From: Chloroflexota bacterium | GTDB taxonomy: Bacteria; Chloroflexota; Dehalococcoidia; Lucifugimonadales; Lucifugimonadaceae | Direction of reading: 5' to 3' | DNA length: 64,000 nucleotides | Assembly (NCBI GenBank): GCA_002718415.1 | Contig: PBEM01000009.1 | Coordinates: 62,001-126,000, forward strand | Shown here: piece after piece, positions 37,799 to 42,410 of the stretch | Position numbering within the stretch: position 1 is the first letter of the stretch | Layout of the letters: each line of letters starts with the position of its first letter | Notes under the pieces: generated by a model | Database searches by the model: none | The model's input: the letters and a program-made list of their open reading frames with translations, nothing else | What the model was told of the DNA's origin: nothing | Translations under genes and position numbers: made by a program

Positions 37799-38689
37799 TT
37801 ATTTCTTGACTTCAACGCCACTTAATGATTCTACATAATGAAGTATTGCAGAATGATCGTTTTTACCTTTTCCTGATTGCATCAATGAAGCTAAAATCTG
37901 TTGTAGGTTTGCTGTGACTTGTATAGGCACACCTAAAGATTTTGCAGTCGACATTGCGTTATTAATATCCTTATAATGTAGTTCGATTCTAAATCCAGGA
38001 TCAAAATTTCTATTAAACATCATTGGTGCTTTAGCATTCATAACGTTCGATCCAGCTAATCCACCTTTAATAGCTTCAAATATTATTTCTGGATTTACTC
38101 CAGCTTTTGTTGCAAGAACTAAAGCTTCAGATAAAGCATGTATATTTGCTGCTACTATAATTTGATTTGCTAGTTTAGTTACATTACCTGCACCATGATC
38201 CCCACATAATACGGATGATTTTCCCACAATATCAAAAATTGGTTTGGCATTATCAAAATCTTTGGTGTTTCCTCCTGCCATAATTGCTAGATCTCCAGAT
38301 ATTGCAAATGGTTCTCCTCCTGATACAGGGGCGTCAATAAAATTTATTTTTTTATCGAGTAATTTTTTTGCAATTGATTTTGATATTTCTGGCTCTATTG
38401 ATGACATATCTATTACTAGGTCGTTCTCTGAGGCTCCTTCTATTATTCCATTATTACCTGTAATAACCTCTAAAGATTGTGGACTATCCTGAACCATTGT
38501 TATTGTGATATCACTGTTTCTAGCAGTATCGGCTGGAGATGATCTTCCTATCGCACCTATTCTAGTTAAATCTTCTATATTTTCTTTGTGTCTATCAAAA
38601 ACAGATAACTCATAACCTGCATTTTTAATATTAATCGCCATTGGTTTACCCATAATACCTAAACCAATAAAACCAATCTTTTTATTCAT
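37799..38689 (-). CDS. Beta-hydroxyacid dehydrogenase (3-hydroxyisobutyrate / tartronate-semialdehyde reductase family)
   Basis: A 296-residue NAD(P)-dependent enzyme. The cofactor motif is 'GFIGLGIMGKPMA' at the N-terminus, the substrate block is 'DAPVSGGEPFA', and the catalytic lysine is in 'GAGNVTKLANQ'. 'HYKDINNAM' is the usual C-terminal segment. It oxidises or reduces beta-hydroxyacids such as 3-hydroxyisobutyrate or tartronate semialdehyde. ATG 38689 with GGAGAG upstream is the start; a longer frame would run into the preceding gene. It lies 23 bases behind the flavin reductase and is probably co-transcribed. Confidence 0.92.
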   Translation of the reverse strand: MNKKIGFIGLGIMGKPMAINIKNAGYELSVFDRHKENIEDLTRIGAIGRSSPADTARNSDITITMVQDSPQSLEVITGNNGIIEGASENDLVIDMSSIEPEISKSIAKKLLDKKINFIDAPVSGGEPFAISGDLAIMAGGNTKDFDNAKPIFDIVGKSSVLCGDHGAGNVTKLANQIIVAANIHALSEALVLATKAGVNPEIIFEAIKGGLAGSNVMNAKAPMMFNRNFDPGFRIELHYKDINNAMSTAKSLGVPIQVTANLQQILASLMQSGKGKNDHSAILHYVESLSGVEVKK

Positions 38690-38712
38690 AATATTCTCTC
38701 CAATAATTGTTA

Positions 38713-39489
38713 TTAGTCGTCGTCTTTCCAAAATCTTTCTTCAATGAAATAGAAATCTGTGTTGGAAAATCTTTGATTTACATCTTCAATCATTTGAGGA
38801 TGTCCGCAAGCATATACACAAGTTTCTTTAGGATTCAATTTTCTTTGTTCTACATAATCTTCTACTAAAGTATTTATTCTTCCTTTTGCACCATTCCATC
38901 CAGAATTTCTTTTCTCATCCGGTCTACTTATTGAAGGATAAAAATCAATATTATTATATTCTTCTGATAGACTTTTTAATTCTTTATCGTATCCGAACTC
39001 ATCAACATAGCTTGCACCTTCCAAAACATAAAAATTGTAATTTTCTCTCTTTATTTCATTATCATTTTGCCATTGATTATCATTAAGATATTTTCTAAGC
39101 ATAGAAACATATGGAACTGTCCCTGTCACAGTACCTACCATAACGTGATTTTTATAATTTGGTTGAAAAACAAAAAGCCCTTTCGCTCTTGGGCGAATAG
39201 TAAGTTCTTCACCTATATTTAATTCTTGTATTATTGGTGTGAGATTTCCGTCTGGAGGAGGAACTACTTCAATAAATAGTTCAATTTCTTTTTCATCAGG
39301 TGAAGATACTATTGAATATGGTCTTTCAATACCATTTTTACCTATAGTGCAATATTGTCCAGGTTTAAAATTAAAAGGATCAGAAGTTTCAATCCAAATT
39401 TTAAGTAAATCTTCTGTAAGGTCTTCTCTACGAGTAATTTTACATGTTGAAAATTTACCCTTAATTGTGGATGATTGAGATGTAGTCAT
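38713..39489 (-). CDS. Ferredoxin/flavodoxin-NADP reductase-type oxidoreductase
   Basis: A 258-residue flavoprotein of the FNR fold. The FAD part has 'FKPGQYCTIG' and 'RPYSIVSSPDE', the diagnostic RxYS motif. The NAD(P) part has 'VGTVTGTVPYVSMLR', 'CVYACGHPQMIEDV' and a C-terminal aromatic ending 'FIEERFW'. It moves electrons between NADPH and a ferredoxin or flavodoxin, or an attached oxygenase. No ferredoxin domain is fused. AGGAG precedes the ATG. It leads an apparent two-gene unit with the beta-hydroxyacid dehydrogenase and is divergent from a DAO-type oxidase across a strong palindrome. Confidence 0.9.
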   Translation of the reverse strand: MTTSQSSTIKGKFSTCKITRREDLTEDLLKIWIETSDPFNFKPGQYCTIGKNGIERPYSIVSSPDEKEIELFIEVVPPPDGNLTPIIQELNIGEELTIRPRAKGLFVFQPNYKNHVMVGTVTGTVPYVSMLRKYLNDNQWQNDNEIKRENYNFYVLEGASYVDEFGYDKELKSLSEEYNNIDFYPSISRPDEKRNSGWNGAKGRINTLVEDYVEQRKLNPKETCVYACGHPQMIEDVNQRFSNTDFYFIEERFWKDDD

Positions 39490-39548
39490 TTTAAATATTT
39501 CTCCTAAAAAAAATCAACTACTATAGGGTAACTCAATAAATAATCATT

Positions 39549-39572
39549 TGTAGTAACTTGAATGTTACTACA
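39549..39572. promoter_or_regulatory. Perfect 9-6-9 palindrome, candidate operator
   Basis: TGTAGTAAC (39549-39557) and GTTACTACA (39564-39572) flank TTGAAT. It lies in the 144-base gap between the flavin reductase (minus) and the DAO oxidase (plus), 60 bases before the oxidase start. The perfect 24-base dyad with unusual G/C content for this region suggests a repressor or activator site, possibly of the GntR class. No regulator gene is adjacent. Confidence 0.6.
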
Positions 39573-39633
39573 GACAATTTTAAAATGAAAATACTAAAAA
39601 TTATATATTTTTAGTTGGATCTGAGTGAAATTT

Positions 39634-40743
39634 ATGAATATTTGTATTGTGGGCGGAGGAATTGTAGGGTGTGCAGCAGCATATTATTTATCTAAAGCAG
39701 GAAATGATGTTACTCTACTTGAAAAAGATGATATAGCGTCAAAGGCTTCTGGATTTTCTTTTGGTGGCCTATTACCTCCAATGGTTTCAGATCAAGATAA
39801 ATTGAATTTATTTACAGATTTTTCTATTCAGCTACATAAAAAATTATTTTCTGATCTTTCATCAAAAAATATAAATTATGGATTTCGCAAAAAAAATTCT
39901 CTTATTCTCGCTACCAGTGAGGATGAGTTAAAAAATATAATTGAATTTTCTTCAGGAATGTATTTTCCTAGTGGTCAAAATCCCGTAATACTTAATCATG
40001 GTGAAATAAGTCATATTGACGCGAGAATTTCCGATAAAGTTTTAGGAGGATTATATATAAATAATTCTTATGATGTTGACGCTTTTAATTTATGCTCTTC
40101 ACTCTGGTACGCAGCAAAAAAATATGGAGCAAAATTAATTAAGGATGAAGTTATATCAATTGATGTTAAAAATAATTCAGTCCGATCGATAGCTTTAAAA
40201 TATTCTAAAAAAAAAATAAATACCCAAAATGTAATTTTGGCTGCAGGTCCATGGAGTAAATTATTAACTGAATCATTAGGTATAGATATACCCTTAAAAC
40301 CACTAAAGGGCCAGATACTTAGATTTGATAACGAAAATCATCCTGATATGAATATAAATTTTTGGTGGGGAGCTAACTATATTTCAACAAAATATGATGG
40401 ATATTTATGGGCAGGTACCACTGAAGAAGATGTTGGCTTTGATCAGAATATAGATAAGAAAGGTGCTCAAAGTATACTTTCTTCTTGTATAGAAATTTTT
40501 CCTTATATCAAAAAATTAAAGATAATTAAACAAACAGCATGTCTTAGGCCAATTACTAGTGATTTACGTCCAATTATTGAAAATTTTCCAAATGAAATTT
40601 CTGGTTTAGTATTGTCAACTGGTGGCGGAAGAAATGGGATTTTATTTGGTCCAGCTATGGGGTATATTGCTGCTGAAATGGTTTTATCAAAAAAAAATTC
40701 AGTTGATACTGCTTTTTTAAATTTAAAAAGGTTTAATAATTGA
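39634..40743 (+). CDS. FAD-dependent oxidoreductase, DAO family
   Basis: A 369-residue flavoenzyme of the glycine/sarcosine/D-amino-acid oxidase family. The dinucleotide-binding motif is 'CIVGGGIVGCAAAYYLSKAG' at the N-terminus, with the glutamate that binds ribose at 'LLEKDD'. 'GGLLPP' and the C-terminal 'TGGGRNGILFGPAMG' are family blocks. It would oxidise a secondary or D-amino acid. An aldolase acting on D-beta-hydroxy amino acids lies 4 kb away, so D-amino acid use is a plausible theme. The ATG at 39634 is preferred to a GTG at 39625. It is followed by the pyr attenuator. Confidence 0.9.
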   Translation: MNICIVGGGIVGCAAAYYLSKAGNDVTLLEKDDIASKASGFSFGGLLPPMVSDQDKLNLFTDFSIQLHKKLFSDLSSKNINYGFRKKNSLILATSEDELKNIIEFSSGMYFPSGQNPVILNHGEISHIDARISDKVLGGLYINNSYDVDAFNLCSSLWYAAKKYGAKLIKDEVISIDVKNNSVRSIALKYSKKKINTQNVILAAGPWSKLLTESLGIDIPLKPLKGQILRFDNENHPDMNINFWWGANYISTKYDGYLWAGTTEEDVGFDQNIDKKGAQSILSSCIEIFPYIKKLKIIKQTACLRPITSDLRPIIENFPNEISGLVLSTGGGRNGILFGPAMGYIAAEMVLSKKNSVDTAFLNLKRFNN

Positions 40744-40790
40744 CTTTTTTTTCAAATAACTTATAGAATTGTAATTGAAAAATTTAATAA

Positions 40791-40821
40791 CCTTTAAGTT
40801 TTATCCAGAGAGGTAACAAGG
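40791..40821 (+). promoter_or_regulatory. PyrR-binding anti-antiterminator hairpin
   Basis: The leader before pyrR holds a close match to the PyrR-binding consensus ARUCCNGNGAGGYU: UAUCCAGAGAGGUA at 40802-40815. It folds as expected: lower stem CCUU (40791-40794) with AAGG (40818-40821), upper stem UUA(U)CC (40801-40806) with GGUAA (40812-40816), one bulged U, and an AGAGA loop. With UMP bound, PyrR stabilises this hairpin and lets the downstream terminator form. The fold was drawn by eye. Confidence 0.85.
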
Positions 40822-40850
40822 TAAATAAAAATGCAATTTCTTTCAAATAT

Positions 40851-40874
40851 CCTCGCGTATATGCGGGGTTTTTT
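40851..40874 (+). terminator. Intrinsic terminator of the pyr attenuator
   Basis: CCTCGC (40851-40856) pairs with GCGGGG (40863-40868) around a 6-base loop (one G-U pair), followed by six T. It lies 31 bases before the pyrR start. GAGG of the PyrR-binding loop (40810-40813) could instead pair with CCTC (40851-40854), giving the competing antiterminator. It thus controls the whole pyr operon by UMP. Confidence 0.85.
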
Positions 40875-40905
40875 ATTTAATAGTAATTATTAGAGTAGTA
40901 ATATT

Positions 40906-41448
40906 TTGAGTCAAATTTTAATGGATCAAACTAATATCTCTCGTTCAATAAAAAGAATATCTTTTGAAATAATTGAAAATAATCAATTAGAGAATTTAGT
41001 TTTAGTTGGAATTCATACTAGAGGTGTTAATTTAGCTCAACGTATAAGAGATAATATTCGTTTAAATTCAGGACATGAATTTACAGTAAATAAATTGAAT
41101 CCAATACGTTTTAGAGATGATTCAAAAATTTTAGATCCTAATACTCTTAATACAACTTCTCTAAATAATGATATAAATAATAAAACAGTCATTCTTATAG
41201 ATGATGTTTTATATACTGGAAGGACTGTTCGAGCGTCTATACAGGCTTTATCAGAATATGGAAGAGCAAAAAACATTAAGATAGCAGTATTAGTTGATAG
41301 AGGTCACAGAGAAATACCTATTAAGCCAGATTATGTAGGGAAAAATATACCTACTTCTGCAGAAGAAAAGATTAGTGTTAAATTTATTGAAGTTGATGGG
41401 ATTGATAGAGTTGATTTATTCTTACCTGAAGGAGAATTATCAAAATAA
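40906..41448 (+). CDS. pyrR: PyrR bifunctional regulator / uracil phosphoribosyltransferase
   Basis: A 180-residue phosphoribosyltransferase-fold protein. It binds pyr mRNA and attenuates the operon when UMP is high, and often has uracil phosphoribosyltransferase activity. The PRPP motif is 'VILIDDVLYTGRTVRAS', and 'LVGIHTRGVNLAQRI' and 'LVDRGHREIPI' are family blocks. The N-terminus 'MSQILMDQTNISRSI' fits PyrR best with the TTG at 40906 as start; an ATG five codons in is the alternative. It is first in pyrR-pyrB-pyrC-carA-carB and sits behind its own binding site and terminator. Confidence 0.95.
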   Translation: MSQILMDQTNISRSIKRISFEIIENNQLENLVLVGIHTRGVNLAQRIRDNIRLNSGHEFTVNKLNPIRFRDDSKILDPNTLNTTSLNNDINNKTVILIDDVLYTGRTVRASIQALSEYGRAKNIKIAVLVDRGHREIPIKPDYVGKNIPTSAEEKISVKFIEVDGIDRVDLFLPEGELSK

Positions 41449-42410
41449 TGAATTTAATAGATGATAAAGAAGAATCTCGAAGAGGACGAAAAGTTAATCA
41501 TTTACTTGACGTTGATTCTCTTTCATTAAATTCCGTTAATACTATTATAAATTCATCTAAAAAAGCTAAAAGTATTTTACTTTCAAAAAATAAGACTCTT
41601 TCACTTAAGGGCAAAACTATTGTAAGTATTTTTTTCGAAAACAGCACTAGAACTAGAGTTTCTTTTGAACAAGCTGGAAAAATTCTGGGTGCAGATGTAA
41701 TAAATGTTAATGTTCCCTCCAGTAGTATTTCAAAGGGGGAATCAATTTTAAATACGGTGAAGACTATACAGTCAATTGGTATGGATAGTCTTATAGTTAG
41801 GCATAATCATTCAGGAGTACCTTATTTTATTGCTAGAAATGTTAATGTTCCAGTTATTAATGCTGGAGATGGAATGCATGCACATCCCACTCAATCTCTT
41901 CTAGATATTTTTACTATTAAAACTGAAATAGGTGACATAAAAAATAAGAAAATATTAATTATTGGAGATGTAAAACATTCTAGGGTAGCTAGATCTAATA
42001 TTAATTTACTTGTCAGATTAGGAGCAAAAATTACTGTAGCGGCTCCTACTACGTTACTTCCAGATTCATGGATAGGAATTAATAAAAAAGATTTCAAAAT
42101 TATTAGTCACTATAAAAAAATGGAATCAAATTTATCTGATACTGATTTAATTATGCTTCTTCGAGTACAAAAGGAAAGACAAGATCAGGGTTCCTTACCT
42201 AATTTGGAAGAATATTCAAAATTATGGGGATTGACTAAATATCGATATGATACTTTATCTCCCAATACTTTTATTATGCATCCTGGACCTGTTAATGAAG
42301 GTGTAGAGGTCGCATCTGAGTTGTTGAACCATAAAAACTCACTAATAGATAAACAAGTAGAAAATGGCGTAGCGGTAAGAATGGCAGTATTAGAATTTTG
42401 TATTTCATAA
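41448..42410 (+). CDS. pyrB: Aspartate carbamoyltransferase catalytic subunit
   Basis: A 320-residue enzyme that joins carbamoyl phosphate and aspartate, the first committed pyrimidine step. Key motifs are 'FENSTRTRVSFEQA' for carbamoyl phosphate, 'HPTQSLLDIF', 'HSRVARSN' and the C-terminal 'HPGPVNEGVE'. The lysine of the 80s loop is in 'SISKGES'. No PyrI regulatory chain is adjacent. Control is probably at the RNA level through PyrR. The start ATG shares its first base with the pyrR stop (TAATG), so the two are coupled. The length is slightly above the usual 305-310. Confidence 0.97.
   Translation: MNLIDDKEESRRGRKVNHLLDVDSLSLNSVNTIINSSKKAKSILLSKNKTLSLKGKTIVSIFFENSTRTRVSFEQAGKILGADVINVNVPSSSISKGESILNTVKTIQSIGMDSLIVRHNHSGVPYFIARNVNVPVINAGDGMHAHPTQSLLDIFTIKTEIGDIKNKKILIIGDVKHSRVARSNINLLVRLGAKITVAAPTTLLPDSWIGINKKDFKIISHYKKMESNLSDTDLIMLLRVQKERQDQGSLPNLEEYSKLWGLTKYRYDTLSPNTFIMHPGPVNEGVEVASELLNHKNSLIDKQVENGVAVRMAVLEFCIS

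Follow-up and report, generated by a model that had tools for sequence, protein, structure and literature searches.

Divergent bacterial genes can be controlled from a shared operator, in which a regulator dimer is placed on or beside both −35 regions. Operators of the GntR and IclR families are short inverted repeats in intergenic gaps, and CRP/FNR-type sites are 5-6-5 dyads. The locus described here lies in a 64,000-nucleotide stretch of DNA from a marine Chloroflexota bacterium, the whole of which is called the window below. It shares a feature with each of these systems, being a short inverted repeat in an intergenic gap, having a 6-base spacer between its arms, and forming a single dyad with a 6-base centre that touches both predicted −35 regions. 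Unlike a typical shared divergent operator, it has no linked regulator and no regulon that could be found, and its symmetry is incomplete in the nearest relative. We propose that the dyad is the operator of a dimeric DNA-binding regulator, bound between back-to-back promoters and confined to this genus, a reading to which we give a probability of about 0.5.

A sequence-only reading had described a perfect 9-6-9 palindrome between divergent genes, and its coordinates and sequence are exact, the whole 24-mer being TGTAGTAACTTGAATGTTACTACA (Table 1). It stands in a 144-base non-coding gap between a leftward FNR-type reductase gene and a rightward DAO-family oxidase gene. The names given earlier to the oxidase and to the 3-hydroxyisobutyrate-dehydrogenase-type gene agree with Pfam, whereas the 'flavin reductase' is better called an FNR-family NAD(P)H oxidoreductase. 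The oxidase probably starts at ATG 39634, judging by alignment with a congener (G001), and not at the tool-listed GTG 39625; from the sequence MNKKIGFIG we infer that the dehydrogenase-type gene starts at ATG 38689. The G+C content of the dyad (29%) had been described as above that of its surroundings, which holds against its own gap (21%) but not against the window (30%).

Table 1. Coordinates of the genes, candidate promoters and dyad elements within the window
Feature	Position	Strand	Remarks
3-hydroxyisobutyrate-dehydrogenase-type gene, downstream of FNR	37799..38689	-	Pfam; ORF listed from TTG 38731
FNR-type reductase, 258 aa	38713..39489	-	FAD_binding_6 and NAD_binding_1 (Pfam); 76% identical in G001
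Candidate leftward promoter, FNR gene: ATGATT-N16-TATAGT	39520..39547	-	Read by eye
Perfect 9-6-9 dyad, TGTAGTAAC-TTGAAT-GTTACTACA	39549..39572		Candidate operator; 21/24 positions identical in G001
Relaxed core, TAnTAAC-N6-GTTAnTA	39551..39570		Common to window and G001
Candidate rightward promoter, DAO gene: TTGAAT-N17-TAAAAT	39558..39586	+	Promoter scan, 9/12
DAO-family FAD oxidoreductase, 369 aa	39634..40743	+	Pfam DAO

Dyads with 9-base arms are ordinary across this AT-rich window, and one with three G/C per arm is rarer than chance in the gap. With arms of at least 9 bases and spacers of 0-12, the window holds 12 dyads against a mean of 10.0 (sd 3.1) in 100 dinucleotide shuffles, and those with at least three G/C per arm number six against a mean of 1.85. 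When the 144-base gap itself was shuffled, any such dyad arose in 198 of 5000 shuffles, and one with at least three G/C per arm in only six. The non-coding divergent gap thus shows more dyad symmetry than chance would give, as expected for the operator of a dimeric regulator. The main rival to the operator reading holds that the symmetry is accidental, asymmetric promoter DNA being conserved and the second arm matching by chance in this strain; the ten or so 9-base-arm dyads expected per window by chance speak for it, and the six in 5000 shuffles of the gap speak against it and for an operator. The same gap also contains a second, AT-rich 9-5-9 dyad, ACTAAAAAT-TATAT-ATTTTTAGT, at 39593-39615, in a stretch that is poorly conserved in G001.

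G001 (contig PBDR01000022.1) belongs to the same genus, is the one congener that keeps the FNR/DAO pair, and is the sole informative close relative; its synteny with the window extends from 5.6 to 63 kb. The FNR/DAO gap is 84% identical there over 101 columns (z 24.7 against shuffles), the highest identity of the nine divergent gaps compared in the syntenic stretch (62-77% in the other eight). It also contains the longest exact match of the nine, 17 bases covering one arm. Both figures support an operator. Against it, two longer gaps between divergent genes (12361 and 28679), each 72% identical, reach equal or higher alignment z scores (54.6 and 24.8). Few proteins of the stretch are as poorly conserved as the oxidase itself (57% identity to G001, with neighbours at 65-79%).

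Column by column, identity with G001 within the dyad is 9/9 in the left (FNR-side) arm, 5/6 in the centre and 7/9 in the right arm. On the FNR side it is 16/18 in the −10 region and 4/6 in the −35, and on the DAO side 5/8 in the next eight bases past the right arm, 10/10 in the rightward −10 region and 4/10 beyond. Because of these identities, the gap is read as being under constraint, yet constraint that is asymmetric about the dyad. Two C-to-G changes in the right arm of G001 are uncompensated in the left arm, leaving seven of nine pairs and no perfect symmetry, and all arm differences between the two genomes fall on one side. Such one-sided conservation, strong in the FNR-side arm and FNR −10 region and weaker in the far arm and beyond it, counts against an operator and is what accidental symmetry would leave. 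What is conserved would then be the leftward promoter, the element CAAGTTACTACAAATGA upstream of it (minus strand), and the −35 and −10 of the rightward promoter. Against accidental symmetry, the symmetric core is intact, with all 12 fixed positions kept in the one informative relative. On balance we regard accidental symmetry as a real possibility, though a somewhat doubtful one.

The operator reading draws its mechanism from the position of the dyad relative to the candidate promoters. The rightward −35 hexamer, TTGAAT, is the 6-base centre of the dyad, and the spacing of this promoter is kept in G001 (TTGTAT-N17-TAAAAT). The leftward promoter fell below the scan threshold in the window and was not listed by the scan; its G001 counterpart, ATGACA-N16-TATAAT, is near-consensus. 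These promoters are predicted from consensus matches only, of which four were found against a shuffle mean of 1.6, and this too weighs against an operator. The dyad centre would form the −35 of the oxidase promoter, and the left arm of the dyad would lie a single base away from the −35 of the promoter serving the reductase and dehydrogenase. A dimer bound there would cover one −35 and flank the other, so that the protein could block or modulate transcription in both directions; the sign of its action and the genes that respond are likewise predictions from this layout.

The dyad could instead act as RNA, as a hairpin or a terminator in either transcript. The 24-mer folds at -10.5 kcal/mol (z -4.5) and a scan flags it as a terminator-like element of the minus strand, but its tail, AATGATTATT, is not a U-run and there is no upstream minus-strand gene to terminate. 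The dyad also lies upstream of both transcription starts, predicted near 39513 for the leftward and near 39593 for the rightward transcript, the whole G001 gap folds no better than its shuffles (z -0.3), and no Rfam family matches at the dyad. We consider an RNA role highly improbable.

A second genomic copy had been suggested as a check on the operator, and none was found at up to 3/18 mismatches in the assembly that contains the window, which comprises 15 contigs (1.06 Mb) and is 74% complete; the dyad itself was the one match, and the reversed-pattern control likewise gave one. The relaxed core recurs once in this genome, inside a biotin-ligase-type coding sequence, and no second intergenic copy of it was found there; in G001 it occurs as a single copy. 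A 14-position version of the dyad, searched with up to one mismatch in 76 family genomes, gave zero-mismatch matches only in the window's genome and G001, both at this locus. Neither this search nor that with the 7-6-7 core at two mismatches was enriched over reversed-pattern controls, which overall matched as often as the real pattern or oftener at one and two mismatches. The lack of a second intergenic copy and the behaviour of the controls in most searches argue against an operator, and the absence of other copies in the assembly also favours accidental symmetry. Single-site regulators exist, however, and the assembly is 74% complete, both of which bear on the absence of further copies. The earlier reading had held that it would fail if there were no second copy anywhere and no conservation in relatives; what was found is no second copy, yet partial conservation in the relative. 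A scan of a genome contig database with the two-species consensus returned two matches, one being G001's own contig; the other, in a transporter-like coding sequence of an AT-rich record, was taken as chance. The DAO protein found no related loci in that database. Among the papers listed by a literature search, none appeared to deal with regulatory sites in this lineage, which is no proof of absence; by its gene content and the Chloroflexi title of a record, the lineage may be of SAR202 type.

No regulator gene adjoins the dyad, a further point against an operator. The sequence-only reading had looked to a GntR- or IclR-like protein. Its first suggestion failed, since no GntR domain was detected in any of the three genomes of the genus (G000, which is the window's own, G001 and G002; 74, 86 and 71% complete; control 12/14). 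For the second, HTH_IclR gave one match each in G000 and G001 and none in G002 (all three assemblies being incomplete), and the G000 match is Lrp/AsnC by Pfam. The dyad differs from GntR- and IclR-family operators in the regulators found for it. It also differs from CRP/FNR-type sites, as its arm departs from their consensus and no match exceeded the Pfam HTH_Crp_2 cut-off in the three genomes. One TetR protein is encoded in each of G000 and G001, and matches like the TetR and Lrp/AsnC proteins of G000 occur in G001 and not in G002. Near the TetR and Lrp/AsnC-type loci, which in the window's genome lie at G000:C6:204615 and G000:C12:26047, no dyad was found, the best 24-base match having 5/18 mismatches. 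By eye, the only further candidates in the window are two MerR-like ORFs (5253 and 61014). Overall, the dyad is real and probably regulatory, yet ordinary, with no evidence of a regulon or of a GntR or IclR regulator.

The gene pair itself is much more widespread. FNR and DAO genes are adjacent and divergent in 24 family genomes, G000 and G001 included, where a pair was defined as an FNR at least 56% identical with a DAO adjacent on one contig. This leaves out five of the 29 genomes with such an FNR (G008, G018, G024, G027 and G035), which had no adjacent DAO among the matches listed. Also left out are genomes whose FNR was weaker or missing; among them are G016 and G025, each with a more distant DAO-like match on the same contig. 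In the third genome of the genus, G002, no FNR match was found and the DAO and dehydrogenase matches were only distant; as this assembly is 71% complete, true loss and missing assembly are indistinguishable there. In the other 22 family genomes (22/22), the sequence scanned on the FNR side of the gap, up to 320 bases long, contained nothing close to the dyad, the best match having 4/12 core mismatches. The joint gene arrangement is therefore wider than, and independent of, the dyad, which on present data appears restricted to one genus. For the earlier claim of a transcription-factor site with joint control, the unusually conserved shared gap in G001 and the pair kept in 24 genomes are in its favour, whereas the missing second copy, the imperfect symmetry in G001 and the 22 distant gaps are not; these last also count against the operator reading itself.

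The gap also seems to record how an ACT-malic enzyme gene was lost step by step, an order read from present-day gaps and not from tree reconstruction, because long gaps with the gene, a fragment, an ACT-only ORF and an empty gap are all represented. Seventeen of the 24 gaps are 1.7-1.95 kb long, and an ACT-domain match occurs in 16 of these (in long gaps, the dyad was sought in the 320 bases adjoining FNR and the ACT domain in 1500). Two long-gap ORFs scanned by Pfam (G029 and G013) are ACT plus malic enzyme, which in relatives is the first rightward gene. In G031 the gap measures 470 bases and contains an ACT fragment, and G001 keeps a 104-residue ACT-only ORF (Pfam ACT_4; L003:2634-2948). 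Neither ACT nor malic enzyme is present in the gap of G000 (window 39490-39633) or of G007, G017, G026 and G034, which belong to another genus. The malic-enzyme NAD domain was not found in G000, G001 or G002 (control 13/14). A genus-specific, single-target operator might have arisen during this loss, with the oxidase coming under the former malic-enzyme promoter and an unlinked regulator of a small set, e.g. the lone TetR or the Lrp/AsnC protein of G000, controlling both directions; we consider this fuller scenario unlikely.

If the dyad is an operator, it would give a lineage of small genomes one defined control site, and would illustrate how a promoter can be reused once a gene is lost; otherwise the gap is routine promoter DNA. 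In both cases, the conserved divergent arrangement of FNR and (malic enzyme) DAO suggests a functional link between reductase and oxidase.

In three of the four genomes of the other genus, the same gap has a perfect dyad of its own, ATGAATTA-ATTA-TAATTCAT (L034, L035 and L036, upstream of FNR), which is unrelated in sequence to that of the window and is perhaps part of an AT-rich promoter. Downstream of the oxidase gene, a PyrR binding-site RNA (RF00515) is matched at 40787-40880 (+) of the window, upstream of a pyrR-type gene and the pyrimidine genes that follow; it is the sole Rfam match within 38600-41500, at 45.9 bits (E 0.00019), under the Rfam gathering score of 54.
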